Source: Acidobacteriota bacterium (GTDB lineage: Bacteria; Acidobacteriota; Terriglobia; Terriglobales; SCQP01). From it: a DNA stretch of 64,000 bases. The notes below the pieces were generated by a model that was given only the letters and a program-made list of their open reading frames with translations, made no database searches and was not told where the DNA came from. Positions 1-63,663 of the stretch are shown here, piece after piece. The DNA lies in the NCBI GenBank assembly GCA_021818955.1, contig JAKASR010000016.1:1-64000 (forward strand). The letters are read 5' to 3'. How positions within the stretch are numbered: the first letter of the stretch is position 1; each line of letters begins with the position of its first letter. A program made the translations under genes and the position numbers.

Positions 1-240
1 CCTGCGGAATTGCCGGCTTGCTTGGCGCAATTCCTGCGGAATTGCCGGCTTGCTTGGCGCAATTCCTGCGGAATTGCTTGGTATTGTCGTTAATAGGCGC
101 GGGACCTAATAGGAACCCCGCGCGAAAGCGGCCTGCGGGCATGGCTTGAGGCAATTTCTTTGAAATTGCCAAGGACGAAAACTGCTGTCCGACTCGGTCG
201 TTAACGCTTACTGCGGCCCGACCCGGCCATTAACGCTTAC
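1..240. repeat. Composite palindromic repeat, copy A (partial)
   Basis: Two and a half tandem copies of a 32-bp unit (1-32, 33-64, 65-77) each hold the palindrome GCAATTCC-TGC-GGAATTGC. A middle module follows with a CGCGGG...CCCGCG stem (about 99-122), then a second palindrome at 150-170 (AATTTC...GAAATT core), then the family end ending GTTAACGCTT near 209. A partial duplicate of that end runs to 240. The same modules recur at 4191-4387, 10843-11094, 15614-15694, 46358-46472 and 63523-63607. The left part of the element may lie outside the window. Confidence 0.85.
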
Positions 241-361: not shown

Positions 362-436
362 TGGACTGCATCCGGCCTGATTATTTACGCGCATTCGCGA
401 ATTGCCGTCATGCTGTCATGGCCTCGGCGATGACAG

Positions 437-506
437 CGCAGAGCGCAGAGCACAGAGCGCAGAGCGCAGAGCACAAAGCACAGAGCACAGAGCGCAAGGC
501 GCAGGG
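437..506. repeat. Heptanucleotide array CRCARRG, about 10 units
   Basis: About ten head-to-tail 7-bp units of consensus CRCARRG (CGCAGAG, CACAGAG, CACAAAG, CGCAAGG). The 7-base period makes every frame read as a 7-residue repeat, which explains the spurious ORFs here. Related arrays lie at 8121-8175, 13433-13545 and 13604-13749. Confidence 0.9.
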
Positions 507-507
507 C

Positions 508-566
508 CAGAATTTGTCTGGGCGCAGCCCGCAAGCGGGCTGCTTTCCGCGGAAGGAAAAAAGCGG
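508..566. repeat. Hairpin cassette next to heptamer array, copy 1
   Basis: A roughly 60-bp block follows the heptamers. It holds a near-perfect hairpin at 524-543 (GCAGCCCGC and GCGGGCTGC around AA), then a TTTCCGCGGAA palindrome and an A-rich tail. The same block, with a 22-bp perfect palindrome, lies inside the heptamer arrays at 13547-13605. The two features therefore seem to travel together. Confidence 0.75.
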
Positions 567-4190: not shown

Positions 4191-4387
4191 GAGCAGGCTG
4201 CGGCAATTTCTCCGAAATTGAGCAGGCCCTTAGGCAATTTCTTCGAAATTGAGCAAGCCCTTAGGCAATTTCTTCGAAATTGAGCAGGCCCTTAGGCAAT
4301 TTCTTCGAAATTGCCAATATTCAGTCAATTTCCGCGAAATTGCCAATGACGAAAACTGCTGTCCGACTCGGCCGTTCACGCTTTCTG
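4191..4387. repeat. Tandem 31-bp palindromic array ending in the composite-repeat end (copy F)
   Basis: Five tandem units at 4191-4219, 4220-4250, 4251-4281, 4282-4312 and 4313-4341. The three central ones are 31 bp and nearly identical. Each carries an AATTTC-NNN-GAAATT palindrome. The array then runs into the same end module (GACGAAAACTGCTG..., CGGCCGTT...ACGCTT) seen in copies A, B and E. It lies directly upstream of the TonB-dependent receptor gene and stays open in that frame, which would falsely extend the receptor by 67 codons. Confidence 0.85.
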
Positions 4388-4449
4388 ATGCATGCGATTG
4401 CAATGCCGAAGACATTTCCCTGGGCATGATTACGCGGAGGATTTCCCCC

Positions 4450-6722: not shown

Positions 6723-8117
6723 ATGATCAATAGCCAAACCAAGATGAGAATCGCGGCGCGTCGCGGGCTGGGGCTGGCACTGGGGCTGGCATGGATGCTG
6801 GGAGCGGCGGGGCTGCGCGCCCAGAACTTCACGCAAATCCGGCCCTCGCCGCCGCAGTTGGAGTGGCAAGACCTGGAATTCGGCGTGATCATTCACTTCG
6901 GGCCGAACACCTTTCTCAACCAGGAATGGGGCAACGGCACGGCCAGCCCGCGGGTATTCAACCCGACGCATTTCGATCCGGCACAATGGATGCGGGCGAT
7001 CAAGGCGGCGGGGGCGAAATACGTGGTGTTCGTGGCCAAGCACCATGACGGCTTTTGCCTCTGGCCCACGGCGCAAACCGATTACAGCGTCAAGAGCAGT
7101 CCGTTCGAGCAGGGCAAAGGCGACGTGGTGGGAGCGGTGGCGCGGGCGGCGCGGCAATACGGGCTGAAGTTCGGCATTTATGTATCGCCCTGGGACCGGC
7201 ACGATGCGCGCTATAAAAATTCAGCCGCCTACGACCGGCTTTACGAGGCGGAGATGACCGAGCTGCTGACCCGCTACGGGCCGCTGGTGGAATGGTGGCT
7301 GGACGGGGCGGGCAGCGCCGGGCACGTGTACGATTTTCCCGCCTATCTGCACCTGTTGCGGGAATACCAGCCCAACACGCTGGTGTTTGCCGACATGAAT
7401 TTGATGAAGTGGGGCGACATCCGCTGGGTGGGCAACGAGCAGGGACGGGCGCCGCGGGAAAACTGGGACGTGATCGACCGCAGCGGCTACCTGCGCTGGC
7501 GTCCGGCGGAATGCGATACGCCGCTGCACCGCGGGCACTGGTTCTGGCATGCGCATGACGCGGCCACGCTCAAGACGCTGCCGGAACTGCTCCAGACCTA
7601 CCAGCGCAGCGTCGGGCGCGGCTGCCAGCTCATGCTGGGGGTGGCGCCGGATACGGCCGGGCGGCTGCCGGCGCGGGATGCGCGCCGGCTGCGCGAGTTC
7701 GGGGCGGCGCTGAAGAAAATTTACGGGCACAACCTGGCGCCGGAAAGCGAGGCGGCGGTTTCCAGCGCCGGCGGCAATGCGCGCGCGGCGGTGGATAACG
7801 ATCCGGCGACGTTCTGGATGGCGCGGCGGGGCGAGTATGCCGCCAGGCTGAGCTTAACCTTTCAGCACGCGGTCACCTTCGACCGCGCGGTGACGATGGA
7901 ATGGCTGAACCGCGGGCAGGAAATTGAAAGCTACCGGATCGAGGCCCGGATAAACGGCGGCTGGAAGACGCTGGCGCGCGGGACGAGCATCGGGCACAAG
8001 CGGATCAATCGATTTGCGCCAACGACCACCCGGCAGGTGCGGCTGGAAATTCTTTCCGCCGCCGGCCGGCCGGCGATCCGGGAATTTCAACTCTACGATG
8101 GGCAGGGAGCGCCGTGA
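6723..8117 (+). CDS. Secreted alpha-L-fucosidase (glycoside hydrolase family 29)
   Basis: Retaining glycosidase of 464 residues that releases alpha-L-fucose from glycans. A hydrophobic segment with ARRGLGLALGLAWMLGAAG near the N-terminus looks like a signal peptide. The GH29 barrel begins at WQDLEFGVIIHFG and contains AKHHDGFCLW, the SPWDRH segment and VEWWLDGAGS, where the Asp is the expected nucleophile. The last 110 residues resemble an F5/8-type carbohydrate-binding domain. ATG 6723 is the first ATG in frame; a TTG at 6702 is less likely, and ATG 6744 is also possible. With the upstream TonB receptor it may form a small fucoside-use locus. Periplasmic or extracellular location is inferred. 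Confidence 0.9.
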   Translation: MINSQTKMRIAARRGLGLALGLAWMLGAAGLRAQNFTQIRPSPPQLEWQDLEFGVIIHFGPNTFLNQEWGNGTASPRVFNPTHFDPAQWMRAIKAAGAKYVVFVAKHHDGFCLWPTAQTDYSVKSSPFEQGKGDVVGAVARAARQYGLKFGIYVSPWDRHDARYKNSAAYDRLYEAEMTELLTRYGPLVEWWLDGAGSAGHVYDFPAYLHLLREYQPNTLVFADMNLMKWGDIRWVGNEQGRAPRENWDVIDRSGYLRWRPAECDTPLHRGHWFWHAHDAATLKTLPELLQTYQRSVGRGCQLMLGVAPDTAGRLPARDARRLREFGAALKKIYGHNLAPESEAAVSSAGGNARAAVDNDPATFWMARRGEYAARLSLTFQHAVTFDRAVTMEWLNRGQEIESYRIEARINGGWKTLARGTSIGHKRINRFAPTTTRQVRLEILSAAGRPAIREFQLYDGQGAP

Positions 8118-8120
8118 AGG

Positions 8121-8175
8121 CGCAGAGCGCAGAGCACAGAGCGCAGAGCACAAGGCGCAGAGCGCAAGGCGCAGG
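8121..8175. repeat. Heptanucleotide array CRCARRG, about 8 units
   Basis: About eight head-to-tail CRCARRG units begin three bases after the fucosidase stop codon. They lie in the convergent gap between that gene and the Cas4-like gene. Bases 8176-8264 hold no gene or clear terminator. Confidence 0.88.
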
Positions 8176-8264
8176 TTAAGGTTAATTGCTAGCACCGCTC
8201 TGATACAGTAGCGGCTTCCCTGTCGGAAAAGTAGCGCGGTAGTTGGTTTAGAAAACGATCCGAT

Positions 8265-9191: not shown

Positions 9192-9233
9192 GGTAAATCC
9201 CGGAACCAATCCTCAAGCGATTAGGCGAGCGCA

Positions 9234-11207
9234 TTAGGGCAGGGGGTTGGTGAAGCCCGGGGGCGGGGTGAGCGAAGCGCCGGGGATGACGACCGGGGTG
9301 ACGCCGGTTTGGGCGCAGCTCATTGGCGGCGGGAAATGATTGACCACGCCATCGGGGATTTCCGCCTGCGCGGCGGGGATGGGCGGCAGGGCGCCGGCGA
9401 GGCGGGCGGGATCGAAGCCGCCGAGCAGATCGGTCAGGCGGGGATTGGCATCGCGCGGGCCGGCGGGCAAGTAGGGTTTTTCGTCCGGCAGCGAGGCCAG
9501 CGCCGGCAAGCGGAACAGCAGGTCGAGGAATTTGGCGAAGGAGCCGGTATCGCCGGGGGCGGAGACGATGGCGCCGGATTTGGCGTAGGGGGAGATGAGC
9601 AGCAGCGGGATGCGCGGGCCGTCGCCGCAGGGATGGCGATCGGGGCAGGTTTCAAAGCGCGGCGGCGGCACGTGGTCGTAGAAGCCTTCCGAATCGTCCC
9701 AGGTCACGATGATGACGGAACTTTTCCAATAGGGGCCGCGGGCGACGGCGTTGACGACTTTGGCGACCAGCGATTCGGAGAGCTGCGAATCGGAATAGCC
9801 GGGGTGATCGTCGTCGCCATCCATGCCGGCGGCGAGCGGATTGGCGGGCACCCAGCCGAAGGGGTTTTTGAATCCGCCTTTGATGAAGACCACGCTGCGC
9901 GCGGGCAGGCGGCGATTTTGGAGGGCGGGAAAGAAAGCGGTCAGATCGTGTTCGCCGCGCCAGAGCGGCGGGTTTTGGCGGATATAGCCGAAATACTGCG
10001 GGGCGTTGTGATGCGGGATGTAGGCGGGGTGATGATTGCCGCGGCCGTTGCCGAAGCCTTCCTGATACCAGGCCCAGGGCACGGCGCGGCGATCGAGGCG
10101 CACCAGCTCGGCGATATCGGCTTGAATGTCGCCATCGTCTTTTTTAGCCAGACGGGCGTTGCGTCCGCTCAAGGTGAGCATGAGGGTGGCGTAGGTCTGA
10201 TCGAGCTGATGCGGCGGGAGGGCCTGGCGGGGAGAGGCATAAGGGCCGAAGGCGGGATTGATGTCGTTGACGACAGGCTCGCCGGGCGCGTACAGGGAAC
10301 GAAACGCTTGGCGCGGATGGCGGGCGGCCTGGGTCATGCCGGTTTGGGCGGCGATCAAGTCGATATTGCCGGGGGTAGAGGGGCCGGTCATCGCCTGGAA
10401 GATGTGATCGTAGAGGGCGAAGCGGTGGGCATACATCCAGAGAAAGGGGATGGTGGCGCAATCCTCATGCGCCATGGTGAGCAGGCCGAGCTGATGCGCG
10501 TATTGCGGGCTGGCGTGCTGTTGGAGCAGGTGCTGTTCTTCGCCGGCGATGAAACGATCCATGCGGCCGCCATCCATTTTGGCGAGCAGCGCCCGGCGGG
10601 AGTGGTTGGCGTCGGAGGAGTCGGCGGCGTGGAGCAGAAAAGGAACGATCCAGGTCCCGCCGATCGGGTCCCACTGGCGGAAACCGTGGGCGCGAGCTTC
10701 GGCGGTGGCGAGATTATCGGCGCCGGGAAAGGAGCCGAAATAGGAATCAAACGAGCGGTTTTCCTGGTAAACGACGAAGACGTGGCGAATGCGGGCGCGC
10801 AGAAGCGCGATGAGCCGGCGGCGAGCGCCTTGAGCCGCCGAAGCGGCACGGCCGCTTTTACTTTTAGGCGCTGACACTTTCGCAAAGGTCCGGCCGAAAC
10901 CGGACGCATTGCGAATACTCATGGATGCCGGGCATGGCCAGGCGCAATTCCTGCGGAATTGCTTTGTATCGTCGTTAATAGGCGCGGGACCTAATAGGAA
11001 CCCCGCGCGAAAGCGGCCTGCGGGCATTGCTTGAGGCAATTTCTTCGAAATTGCCAATGACGAAAACTTCTGTCCGACTCGGCCGTTAACGCTTGAGGCG
11101 GCCGGGGCTTGGGCGGCGGCGGACAAGCCGAGGCCCACAGCAGCCAGGAGGAGCCAGCGGAAAATGCGGGCGCGAGCGGAGGATGCGGATGAAGACTGAA
11201 CCAGCAA
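9234..11207 (-). CDS. Secreted phosphoesterase (phospholipase C / acid phosphatase family) with in-frame repeat insertion
   Basis: Protein of about 657 residues in the PF04185-type phosphoesterase family, which cleaves phosphate esters such as phospholipids outside the cytoplasm. Family motifs are YQENRSFDSYFG near the start of the mature domain and TWDDSEGFYDHVPPP near the C-terminus. A signal peptide (about 12-34) precedes them. Residues 39-122 are not family sequence: they are the translation of a composite repeat (10843-11094), which is 252 bases long and has no stop in this frame. No ATG lies before the signal peptide. TTG 11207 fits best because GGGGAG stands 8 bases upstream, while TTG 11213 is too close to it. 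Whether the repeat-derived linker is tolerated in a working enzyme is unknown. Confidence 0.82.
   Translation of the reverse strand: MLVQSSSASSARARIFRWLLLAAVGLGLSAAAQAPAASSVNGRVGQKFSSLAISKKLPQAMPAGRFRAGFLLGPAPINDDTKQFRRNCAWPCPASMSIRNASGFGRTFAKVSAPKSKSGRAASAAQGARRRLIALLRARIRHVFVVYQENRSFDSYFGSFPGADNLATAEARAHGFRQWDPIGGTWIVPFLLHAADSSDANHSRRALLAKMDGGRMDRFIAGEEQHLLQQHASPQYAHQLGLLTMAHEDCATIPFLWMYAHRFALYDHIFQAMTGPSTPGNIDLIAAQTGMTQAARHPRQAFRSLYAPGEPVVNDINPAFGPYASPRQALPPHQLDQTYATLMLTLSGRNARLAKKDDGDIQADIAELVRLDRRAVPWAWYQEGFGNGRGNHHPAYIPHHNAPQYFGYIRQNPPLWRGEHDLTAFFPALQNRRLPARSVVFIKGGFKNPFGWVPANPLAAGMDGDDDHPGYSDSQLSESLVAKVVNAVARGPYWKSSVIIVTWDDSEGFYDHVPPPRFETCPDRHPCGDGPRIPLLLISPYAKSGAIVSAPGDTGSFAKFLDLLFRLPALASLPDEKPYLPAGPRDANPRLTDLLGGFDPARLAGALPPIPAAQAEIPDGVVNHFPPPMSCAQTGVTPVVIPGASLTPPPGFTNPLP
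10843..11094. repeat. Composite MITE-like repeat, copy B (most complete)
   Basis: All modules are present in order: the left end with GCGGCACGGCCGC, a GTCCGG-CCGAAA-CCGGAC hairpin, the GCAATTCC-TGC-GGAATTGC palindrome, the CGCGGG...CCCGCG stem, the AATTTC-TTC-GAAATT palindrome, and the right end CGGCCGTTAACGCTT. The left end (AAGCGGCACGGCCG, 10841-10854) and the reverse complement of the right end (AAGCGTTAACGGCCG) are imperfect terminal inverted repeats. The copy lies inside the phosphoesterase coding frame. Confidence 0.85.
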
Positions 11208-11288
11208 GGCCAAATCTCCCCAAGCGGCCCGGATTGCAGCCGCGATTGTGACTGCGGGCGCAAGGCGCAGAATGCGAAAGCTCTATTG

Positions 11289-11344
11289 TATGCCGGCCCG
11301 GCATAAAACCAGGGGTGATCAAGCCCGCACAATTTTAAAAATTG
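11289..11344. other. Two palindromes between the aconitase-like and phosphoesterase genes
   Basis: A 17-base palindrome (TATGCCGG-C-CCGGCATA, 11289-11305) and a 15-base palindrome (CAATTTT-A-AAAATTG, 11330-11344) lie between the stop of the aconitase-like gene and the start of the phosphoesterase gene. They may end transcription or be protein sites. Neither is followed by a T-run on the minus strand. Confidence 0.45.
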
Positions 11345-11398
11345 CGAAAAACCACGCTCAAGCCATGACTGCCGAAGCGGTGAAGCGGAGCGGCGGTA

Positions 11399-13396
11399 TT
11401 ATTCCCCATCCCAGGCGCGGATTTCGCCGGCCAGGGCGCTGGCGGCGACGGTCAGCGGGCTGGCGAGGTAGAGCTGTCCGGGGCCGCTGCGGCCGGGGAA
11501 GTTGCGGTTTTGGGCGCTGATGGCGATCTGATCGGGGCGGGTAGTGACGCCGGGGCCGGCATTGATGCAGGCGCCGCAACCCGGCTCGATGACGAGCGCG
11601 CCGGCGCGCGCGAAAATTTCCAGATAGCCGCGCTGGCGGCAATATTCGCGGGTGGCCTGCGAACCGAACTGGATATAGAAGCGCACCGAATCGGGCACGC
11701 GGCGGCCGCGCTTGAGCGCCGCAGCGAGCACGCGGGCGTACATATCCATATCCTCATTTTTACCGGCGGTGCAGGCGCCGCCGTAGGCGATTTCGACGCG
11801 CACCGGGGCGGGCAGCTCGTCGATGAAGACGCCGCGGCCGGGATCGCCGGGCAAGGCGACCAGGGGGCGGAGGGCGGAGGCGTCGATGGCGATTTCGGCG
11901 GCGTATTGGGCGCCGGAGTCGCTTTGCCAATAATGCCCGGTGGAAGGATCGCGGCAGAGGCGGTCGGCTTCGAGCCGGGTGAAGCCGCGGCGGTCGCATA
12001 AAAATTCCACGGCGCGGCGGTCGGGAGCGACGATGCCGGTGAAGCCTCCGATTTCGGCGGCCATGTTGGTGAGGGTGGCGCGCTCATCGACGCTCATCGC
12101 CTCGACCGCCTCGCCGGCGTACTCGATGACTTTGCCGATGGCGCCGCCGCTTTTTACCAGCGGCTGGCGGAGGATTTCCAGGATGACGTCTTTGGCGGCG
12201 AGGCGGGGAGCGAGGCGTCCGCGAATGGCGACGCGCACCGACTCGGGGGTTTGGACGCGGACGTCGTGCGTCATCCAGGCATTGAAGACGTCGGTGGTGC
12301 CGATGCCGAAGGCGAGCGCGCCGATGGCGCCGGAGTGCGGGGTGTGGGAATCGGAGCCGACGATCAACTGACCGGGCAGGGCATAGCTTTCGAGCACGAT
12401 GCTGTGGCAGATGCCTTCGGAGCCTTTGCGGCCGGCCAGCTCGCCATGCAGGCGGATGCCCTGGCGGCGGGCGAAGTCTTCCTGCTTGAGCTTCAATTGA
12501 GCGGCGAGGTCGAGCAGGCCGAGGGCGCGCTTTTCCGGCGGCAGGGTTTCATCGAGGAAGGTGAGATGGTCGCGGAAAAAGACGATGGTTTCCGGATCGT
12601 TGACCGGGGCATCGGCGCCGACCAGTTGCTCGAAAAAGATCGCCGCCATGGGGGTGACGTACTCATGGCTGAAGCGCAGATCGGCGCGGGCAAAGCCGGC
12701 GTCGCCGGGCCGGACCGCGGGGGCGCCGTCCTGGGGTGAAAGGTTGAGCAGGTGGCGGGCGAGGATTTTTTCCGCCAGGGTCATGGGGCGCGGCGGGGTG
12801 GAGATGGGGGGCAAGGCGATTTCGCCGGCCAGGCGCTGCCGGTTGTAATCGAACAATCCGCCGGCGCGGATGATGCCGGCGGTAATCGCATCCTGGCCGC
12901 GGGTGAATTCCTCGAGCGGGATGGAATCGCCGCGGCGAATGCGCTCGATCAGGCCGAAATCGGTGGAGGTGAGCAGTCCGAGATTCTGGCAATTCTGGCG
13001 GTAGATGCGCTCGTGGTTTTCGGCAATCACCAGGCGGATGCCGGCGCAAAGCTCGGCATAGGGCGACTGCTCGCGGCTGGAGCCTTTGCCGCGACGCTTG
13101 CCGGAAACGCAAACGGAGAAGCCGCCGCGGCGCACGTGGTTGCGTCCGAGGGGCAGCTCGCCGCCGCATTTCAGCCCGGTGTAGGGCCAATCGCCCAGAG
13201 TCTGATCGAAATAAAAGCAGATGTGCGCGGGGGTGATCTCGTCGGTGGAGATATCGTCGCGCAGCTTGATGGAGGGATTCCAGTCGAGGTCTTCGCCGGC
13301 GAGCTGGCGGCGAATCAGGGCGGGATCCTCGGTAAGAAAAAGGATGCGTCCGGGAAAGCTGACCTGCTGCGCTCCGGATGCGGCCGCGCGTCCCAT
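11399..13396 (-). CDS. Aconitase / isopropylmalate isomerase family enzyme with swapped domain order
   Basis: The 665-residue protein combines both halves of the aconitase superfamily in reversed order. The swivel (small-subunit, LeuD-like) domain comes first (about 35-215, with IKLRDDISTDEITPAH and RGKGSSREQSP). The 4Fe-4S catalytic domain follows (about 230-665). That domain keeps GICHSIVLES, GSDSHTPHSGAIG and all three cluster cysteines, in GGACTAGK and in PGCGACINAG. Such enzymes isomerise hydroxy-acids by dehydration and rehydration. The substrate could be citrate, isopropylmalate or a related acid. No leuC or leuD accompanies the leuA-leuB genes of this window, so isopropylmalate is worth testing. 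The start is ATG 13396. Family is firm, substrate open. Confidence 0.85.
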   Translation of the reverse strand: MGRAAASGAQQVSFPGRILFLTEDPALIRRQLAGEDLDWNPSIKLRDDISTDEITPAHICFYFDQTLGDWPYTGLKCGGELPLGRNHVRRGGFSVCVSGKRRGKGSSREQSPYAELCAGIRLVIAENHERIYRQNCQNLGLLTSTDFGLIERIRRGDSIPLEEFTRGQDAITAGIIRAGGLFDYNRQRLAGEIALPPISTPPRPMTLAEKILARHLLNLSPQDGAPAVRPGDAGFARADLRFSHEYVTPMAAIFFEQLVGADAPVNDPETIVFFRDHLTFLDETLPPEKRALGLLDLAAQLKLKQEDFARRQGIRLHGELAGRKGSEGICHSIVLESYALPGQLIVGSDSHTPHSGAIGALAFGIGTTDVFNAWMTHDVRVQTPESVRVAIRGRLAPRLAAKDVILEILRQPLVKSGGAIGKVIEYAGEAVEAMSVDERATLTNMAAEIGGFTGIVAPDRRAVEFLCDRRGFTRLEADRLCRDPSTGHYWQSDSGAQYAAEIAIDASALRPLVALPGDPGRGVFIDELPAPVRVEIAYGGACTAGKNEDMDMYARVLAAALKRGRRVPDSVRFYIQFGSQATREYCRQRGYLEIFARAGALVIEPGCGACINAGPGVTTRPDQIAISAQNRNFPGRSGPGQLYLASPLTVAASALAGEIRAWDGE

Positions 13397-13432
13397 GCGC
13401 TTAGTTTAACGCGAGAAGGCGGATTGGGAAGG

Positions 13433-13545
13433 CGCAGAGCGCAAAGCACAGAGCACAGAGCGCAGAGCACAGAGCGCAGAGCACAAAGCGCAGAGCACAA
13501 AGCGCAAAGCACAGAGCACAAGGCACAAGGCACAGAGCGCAGAGC
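13433..13545. repeat. Heptanucleotide array CRCARRG, about 16 units
   Basis: About sixteen CRCARRG units begin 36 bases upstream of the aconitase-like start codon, in the divergent gap that also holds the VWFA gene promoter region. Together with the next array they fill most of 13397-13881. Confidence 0.9.
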
Positions 13546-13546
13546 C

Positions 13547-13605
13547 GGAATTTACCTGGGCGCAGCCCGGCATGCCGGGCTGCTTTCCACGGAAGGAAAA
13601 AAGCG
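13547..13605. repeat. Hairpin cassette between heptamer arrays, copy 2
   Basis: This roughly 60-bp block closely matches 508-566. It contains a perfect 22-bp palindrome at 13563-13584 (left arm GCAGCCCGGCA), then TTTCCACGGAA and an A-rich tail leading into the next heptamer array. Confidence 0.75.
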
Positions 13606-13749
13606 CAGAGAACAAAGCACAAGGCACAAAGCGCAGAGCGCAGAGCGCAGAGCGCAGAGCGCAGAGCAAAGGGCGCAGGGCACAGGGCACAGGGCGCAGA
13701 GCGCAGAGCGCAAAGCGCAGAGCACAAAGCGCAAAGCACAGAGCGCAGA
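13604..13749. repeat. Heptanucleotide array CRCARRG, about 21 units
   Basis: The longest array, about 21 units with minor variants such as CACAGGG and CAAAGGG. Bases 13750-13881, up to the VWFA gene, are A-rich and hold no gene. The promoter was not identified. Confidence 0.9.
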
Positions 13750-13881
13750 ACTGAAGAAGGCGGGAGACAGAAAAACAGCAGGAAGTAGAAAGCAGAAAGC
13801 GGCGAGGGCGGATTCCATTGACATTGGAACGATGGAGCGGATAATTACAGTCAGATATATGAAATCTGGATTTATAAACTT

Positions 13882-15613: not shown

Positions 15614-15694
15614 ACGGCACGGCCGCTTTTACTTTTCGGCGCTGACGCTTTCGCCAAGGTCCGGCCGAAACCGGACGCAGGGCGAATACTCCTG
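15614..15694. repeat. Composite repeat, copy C (left module only)
   Basis: Only the left module is present: GGCACGGCCGCTTTTACTTT, then the GTCCGG...CCGGAC hairpin and GGCGAATACTC. It lies in the convergent gap between the VWFA gene and the efflux pump gene. Confidence 0.8.
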
Positions 15695-15921
15695 GATAGA
15701 AAGAAGAAAGCAGTGCCGATTTTTATTCAAGCGCGGAGGAAATGCCGGTATGGATAAAAGCCTGTCCTTTAAATAAAAGCGGCTCGCCGGAAATTTTGGC
15801 GAGCGCGTAAGCGAAGAAATCGCCCAAATTCAGCCGGGCTCGATGTCCACTGGCCTTACCAAAATCACGACAGGCTTCACGCGCAACTCGCGCCTGTTCC
15901 GCAGAGACCGCTTCAACGCGC
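15695..15921. other. Intergenic stretch, no gene seen
   Basis: Spacer between repeat copy C and the 3' end of the last efflux gene. A short GGCTCGCC...GGCGAGC hairpin near 15781-15806 could serve as a terminator. No ORF here has coding character. Confidence 0.4.
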
Positions 15922-46357: not shown

Positions 46358-46472
46358 GCGGCACGGCTTTTATTTTTAGGCGCTGACGCTTTCGCAAGGG
46401 TCTGGCCGAAACCGGACATAGGGCGAATACTCATGGCTGCCGGGCATGGCCGGGCGCAATTCCCGCGAGGCG
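46358..46472. repeat. Composite repeat, copy D (left half)
   Basis: Contains the left module (GGCACGGCTTTTATTTTTAG, then the hairpin around CCGAAACC) and the start of the next module (CCGGGCATGGCCGGGCGCAAT), then diverges. It lies between the 3' end of glutamine synthetase and the ilvC promoter. Confidence 0.8.
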
Positions 46473-63522: not shown

Positions 63523-63607
63523 GCGGCACGGCCGCTTTTTACTTTTAGGCGAATTTCTTCGAAATTGCCGATGACGAAAACTGCTGCCCGACTCGGCCGT
63601 TAACGCT
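63523..63607. repeat. Composite repeat, copy E (internally deleted)
   Basis: The left end (CGGCACGGCCGCTTTTTACT, 63524 on) is joined directly to the right module with its AATTTC-TTC-GAAATT palindrome and the end CGGCCGTTAACGCT at 63607. About 165 bp of the interior are missing compared with 10843-11094. Both ends are retained, as in a deletion derivative of a mobile element. Confidence 0.85.
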
Positions 63608-63663
63608 GAAAGCTGGCGCCGCTATTGTGAAATTTCCCGACCCGGCCGAATGCCGAAAATGAA

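Follow-up and report, generated by a model that had tools for sequence, protein, structure and literature searches.

The window, a 64,000-nucleotide stretch of an acidobacterial contig, contains on its minus strand a gene for a PF04185 phosphoesterase, predicted to be secreted, within which a full copy of a repeat element is read in frame. The locus comprises the following features:

9234–11213, minus strand: secreted PF04185 phosphoesterase gene with the element in frame, 659 amino acids, TTG start as listed.
11106–11213, minus strand: signal peptide region (ARIFRWLLLAAVGLGLSAAAQA), read from the sequence and aligned with the signal peptides of homologues.
10843–11094, plus strand: repeat element, full copy of 252 bp forming a train of hairpins, with ends GCGGCACGGCC...GTTAACGCTT.
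11038–11056, plus strand: hairpin module, an internal palindrome of the AATTTCTTCGAAATT type.
10843–11094, minus strand: the 84 repeat-encoded residues, about 41–124, absent from all aligned homologues.
9504–10790, minus strand: PF04185 phosphoesterase domain, residues 142–570, with conserved motifs intact.

Read on the minus strand in phase with the 659-residue open reading frame, the 252-bp copy is free of stop codons, and it lies after the signal peptide and before the first PF04185 motif, as an earlier note on this DNA had claimed; signal peptide, insert and PF04185 domain share one frame. The note had also placed an 84-residue linker of mobile-repeat origin at residues 39–122. Its origin and length hold, but the residues encoded by the insert are 41–124 (SVNGR...SKSGRAA), and they are strongly basic (15 K/R versus 2 D/E). 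Upstream of the insert and in the same frame, RARIFRWLLLAAVGLGLSAAAQA is by inspection a plain signal peptide, and this stretch has a coding score of 12.1 compared with −7.5 antisense. An in-frame TTG at 11207 is probably the translation start, rather than the listed start of the open reading frame, because GGGGAG (11216–11221) lies 8 nt ahead of it. Residues 142–570 match the whole PF04185 profile (positions 1–356 of 356, E=6.8e-54, 183.8 bits), membership being taken to require a full-length match and the Pfam cut-off being 23 bits, and the family motifs QENRSFD, GDDDHPG and WDDSxGFYDHV are all conserved. The gene does not look decayed, since the core motifs are intact and the catalytic core is as conserved as that of its relatives or more so. 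A full-length AlphaFold model, with a mean pLDDT of 42.7, is too poor to judge disorder of the insert.

The earlier note had proposed aligning the protein with PF04185 homologues to see whether this lineage alone has the linker. In the 28-protein alignment the insert is missing from all 27 homologues, which show a gap over the repeat-encoded stretch. None has an unrelated linker of similar length, the finding that had been named as counting against the repeat reading, and all 27 have a short one. The homologues that were read out run from a signal peptide through this short linker to LIANLRAHIHHVFVIYQENRSFD, the linker being weakly conserved between signal peptide and core. In genomes of the same family, matches to homologues start after the repeat, at query residues 108–127, and among 26 loci from 84,980 species genomes the match starts at residues 107–137 in 25 and at residue 94 in one (L136), whose N-terminus consists of a signal peptide and a short linker without the repeat. 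As judged from the sequences, these comparisons support confinement of the insert to the source lineage among the phosphoesterases compared, and the alignment, which is of proteins and not at the DNA level, suggests that the homologues would have an exact empty site at this locus.

About 360 copies of the element are present in the genome, nearly all of them intergenic. The left-end 24-mer has 362 matches in the genome, compared with none for the reversed control, 2 in the other species of the genus examined and none in five further members of the family; the right end has 265 matches in the genome, 15 in the other species of the genus examined and at most 2 in the five further family members. 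Within the order the element was matched in 4 of 298 genomes, all of one family. BLAST of the 252-bp copy against its own genome gave 64 matches, of which about 22 are near full length (88–94% identity); such recurrence far exceeds what chance would give. The exact ends, taken from 86 well-bounded copies, are GCGGC...AACGCTT. The element is modular, with an overall range of 78 to about 310 nt, and a solo unit is common, 38 of its 42 examples being exactly 78 nt long. The earlier note had described its most complete copy as 252 bases, which is correct for the copy in the phosphoesterase, but clean copies are mainly 189, 219 or 249–252 nt long and 252 nt is not typical. The fold of the 252-bp copy as single-stranded DNA is better than that of 200 of 200 shuffled sequences (z −3.81), and alifold gives separate local hairpins with just short partial pairing between the ends. 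By inspection there are no terminal inverted repeats, the two ends not being inverted repeats of each other. Covariation within the hairpins amounts to one compensatory cell of 2005, the copies being too alike. A search of window positions 9200–11500 against Rfam 15 gave no match up to an E value of 1, and the exact left-end pattern was absent from the viral contigs searched. The window contains these further parts of the element:

1–224, plus strand: partial copy, two tandem 32-nt units (1–64) and the right part of the element (56–209).
4202–4398, plus strand: array of AATTTC..GAAATT palindrome units with a right end.
15615–15697, plus strand: solo left-end module of about 78 nt.
46358–46467, plus strand: fragment of the left part of the element.
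63523–63623, plus strand: short copy, left fragment (63523–63551) and right end (63544–63607).

Elsewhere in the genome, locus L042 (C46:92000–97500) contains at about C46:94455–95131 a tandem array of internal palindrome units with several left-end modules, which includes a run of N and a 272-residue open frame. A 7-nt unit (GCACAGA or GCGCAGA) that forms long tandem arrays in the window (405–549, 8106–8187 and 13387–13814) is apparently unrelated to the element.

Insertion follows a target rule. A G is found at +3 past the right end in 80 of 86 full copies (P about 1e-33) and in 39 of 42 solo units, compared with a background of 31.5%, and the insertion point is 4 nt before the G (80/86). 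Target duplication as a rule was rejected, being absent from 84 of the 86 copies; the other two, at C6:106694 and C22:77260 (the latter given as a minus-strand offset), have exact direct repeats of 12–14 bp at their ends. Nested copies are inserted exactly, without duplication and with the target intact, for example TCGTTAA^TAGGCGC. Orientation is strongly biased: of 181 left ends, 157 share the majority orientation of their own contig, a number that none of 20,000 shuffles reached (best 133). Genes do not explain this bias, because gene strands are balanced. The orientation is near-uniform along the whole of contigs C6, C22, C26, C46 and C43 (L146–L165, L195–L205), whatever the gene strand. 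On these draft contigs, whose origin of replication is unknown, orientation was compared with two gene-strand-corrected fourfold-site skews, of which T–A alone was strong (rho −0.755; G–C rho 0.30, p 0.08), and raw GC skew showed no agreement with it. We infer that insertion may be replication-coupled and of a single-strand type, because it occurs without duplication and with an orientation bias that tracks base skew, as documented for Y1 HuH elements. A search of the 96%-complete assembly for a Y1 transposase (PF01797) gave no match; such a gene could lie in the missing part.

The phosphoesterase is one of at least eight host proteins with in-frame inserts, further cases having come from a profile search of open reading frames; for the window gene and five other hosts, homologues that lack the insert were checked. 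Genic copies are rare but real. A codon model places coding sequence on both sides of about 7 of the 86 copies, compared with 74.5% of random positions, and in some of these copies the flanks are neighbouring genes rather than the halves of an interrupted one. Long open reading frames that span copies are mostly antisense or 5′ untranslated artefacts and were set aside. The strongest of the other in-frame cases is a TPR/FG-GAP/ASPIC protein of 1211 residues (C10:90661–94293) with 74 repeat-encoded residues in mid-protein, over which all seven relatives (the nearest 77% identical) have a clean gap. An M1 aminopeptidase (C16:84423–87161) consists of a signal peptide, about 35 repeat residues and then IPAGIPRALARRRAANIS, whereas its G001 orthologue, 77% identical, passes directly from SAQ to IPAGIPR. 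A secreted protein (C4:16400–17599) contains 103 repeat residues past its signal peptide that its G001 orthologue lacks altogether, a PMT_2 membrane protein (L117:8650–10431) contains about 28, and left-end modules are present in an S10 peptidase, a PG_binding_1 protein and one unnamed protein. In five hosts or more, all of them secreted or membrane proteins, the insert follows the signal peptide or lies inside it. The PMT_2 protein also owes its C-terminus to a second copy, of which it contains the right end (ALTAESDRSFRPKSQAEARGSY), and the frame of a TetR-family regulator (L242:1530–2357) enters a copy and stops there, giving a repeat-derived C-terminus. Several copies lie directly upstream of start codons, including those at C16:74167 (a rhamnosidase-like protein) and C6:57821.

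Protein-embedded copies mostly share one antisense frame (SVNGR...SKSGRA), and the earlier note had concluded that the element keeps one frame open. In each of the three size classes the consensus indeed has this frame open, but its retention in individual copies shows no excess over neutral simulation (10 of 14 versus 11.1, 6 of 9 versus 5.9 and 6 of 11 versus 6.8), and no selection for an open frame was seen. The best explanation for the frame shared among the hosts is that a gene can survive an insertion in this frame, since it is open in the consensus yet lost at the neutral rate. DNA homology by itself accounts for the peptide fragments that had been noticed in the antisense frames of other copies; almost all copies are intergenic. 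The divisibility of the main lengths by 3 is no more than suggestive, as these lengths represent a few related size classes and not independent events. We regard as doubtful the wider proposal that the element is built so as to do no harm inside genes (sizes of 78, 189, 219 and 249/252 nt, multiples of 3, with the antisense frame open), is a recurrent source of linkers and extensions in exported proteins, and is spread by a new strand-biased, duplication-free mechanism with a putative enzyme.

The explanation that we consider highly probable, taken as a whole, is that a non-autonomous, palindrome-rich mobile element was amplified in one acidobacterial lineage, was inserted in frame into the phosphoesterase gene and is tolerated there as a linker. 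One full copy would have entered the short linker between signal peptide and catalytic domain exactly, without target duplication. At 252 bp (84 codons) and with a stop-free antisense frame, the copy would have left the gene open, and the predicted translation of the gene adds an 84-residue extension rich in Ser, Gly, Ala, Lys and Arg. If the product is translated and secreted, as its sequence suggests, the extension may be neutral, being tolerated as a linker once the signal peptide is cleaved. The earlier note had seen domestication instead, in which the 84 residues are retained because they are useful, for example as a basic anchor or spacer of the secreted enzyme. We consider this unlikely. 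The intact frame, the basic character of the insert and the number of secreted or membrane hosts with inserts at the signal peptide are in its favour, but the first is accounted for by the neutral simulation without a signal of selection, and a position just past a signal peptide is also the least harmful one for an insert. A single insert-bearing sequence of this phosphoesterase is known, too few for a measure of constraint on the insert. We therefore prefer to read the 84 residues as a linker that is tolerated.

It is similarly improbable that the element is untranslated, the true start lying inside or beyond the repeat and the signal-like stretch having arisen by chance. Other copies do adjoin starts and the repeat contains in-frame ATG codons; the upstream stretch, however, is coding-like, shares the frame and resembles a signal peptide, the homologues whose N-termini were read out carry one at the corresponding place, and a start within or after the repeat would strip the enzyme of its own. 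Misjoining of a high-copy repeat into the gene is very improbable, even though the assembly is a draft of 47 contigs and some of the roughly 360 similar repeats lie at contig ends. Both flanks belong to one gene and one frame, so that a misjoin would have to link the halves of an orthologue exactly, and likewise both halves of the TPR/FG-GAP/ASPIC protein match one orthologue in order. A 252-bp repeat also falls inside the usual span of a short-read pair. As to how the copies arrived, insertion by a DDE-type (MITE-like) transposase, with target duplications that have mostly decayed since, would fit the direct repeats at two copies, but is unlikely given the 84 copies without them, among which are nested insertions with an intact, recognisable target, the strand-biased orientation and ends that are not mutual inverted repeats.

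The closest precedent for a tolerated mobile repeat of this kind is the Rickettsia palindromic element (RPE), a structured, high-copy element of ∼100–150 bp that in some cases is in frame in conserved protein genes (PMC10969869, PMC3767692, PMC2229807); an RPE-bearing guanylate kinase is translated and active (PMC2229807). The likeness to these Rickettsia/Wolbachia palindromic elements is one of description: both are small, structured, high-copy repeats that are read in frame in proteins of unrelated kinds, which seem to tolerate them. Unlike RPEs, the acidobacterial element occurs in another phylum, is modular (78 to about 310 nt), mostly intergenic and strand-biased, and follows the +3 G target rule; inspection and alifold showed neither inverted repeats between its ends nor the long stem-loop with terminal inverted repeats of RPEs. 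ERIC, YPAL and Correia/NEMIS elements, for which inverted ends and/or target duplications are tabulated and some open frames are fused to genes (PMC2229807), are likewise small, non-autonomous, mostly intergenic and MITE-like, whereas the element described here as a rule has neither inverted ends nor duplications (2 of 86 copies), the features of a MITE. Y1 HuH elements (REP/REPIN with TnpA-REP, and IS200/IS605) insert without target duplication and with a replication-linked strand preference (PMC6006769). The acidobacterial element resembles these in its palindromic hairpins, lack of duplication and strand bias, but differs in its longer unit, in the lack of a PF01797 match in the assembly and in a target preference that is confined to the 3′ side and comes close to a single base (the conserved +3 position). 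We do not claim membership in the RPE, MITE or REP families, because inverted ends, target duplications and a cognate Y1 enzyme were sought and not found.

A 2024 review considered similar protein evolution in other prokaryotes merely conceivable (PMC10969869), and the titles and abstracts of the literature searched for acidobacterial palindromic repeats contain nothing on this element. As far as that literature shows, translated mobile palindromic repeats are known chiefly from Rickettsia and Wolbachia and the present case is new for the phylum. To Rickettsia specialists the finding is ordinary in kind; the insertion behaviour is unusual. To judge from its genes, the cell probably makes proteins that carry pieces of mobile DNA, which would provide a concrete second system, in another phylum, with several proteins as hosts and with the site still empty in relatives. 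Element orientation could serve as a marker of the replication strand, and the enzyme responsible for the duplication-free, strand-biased spread can be sought.
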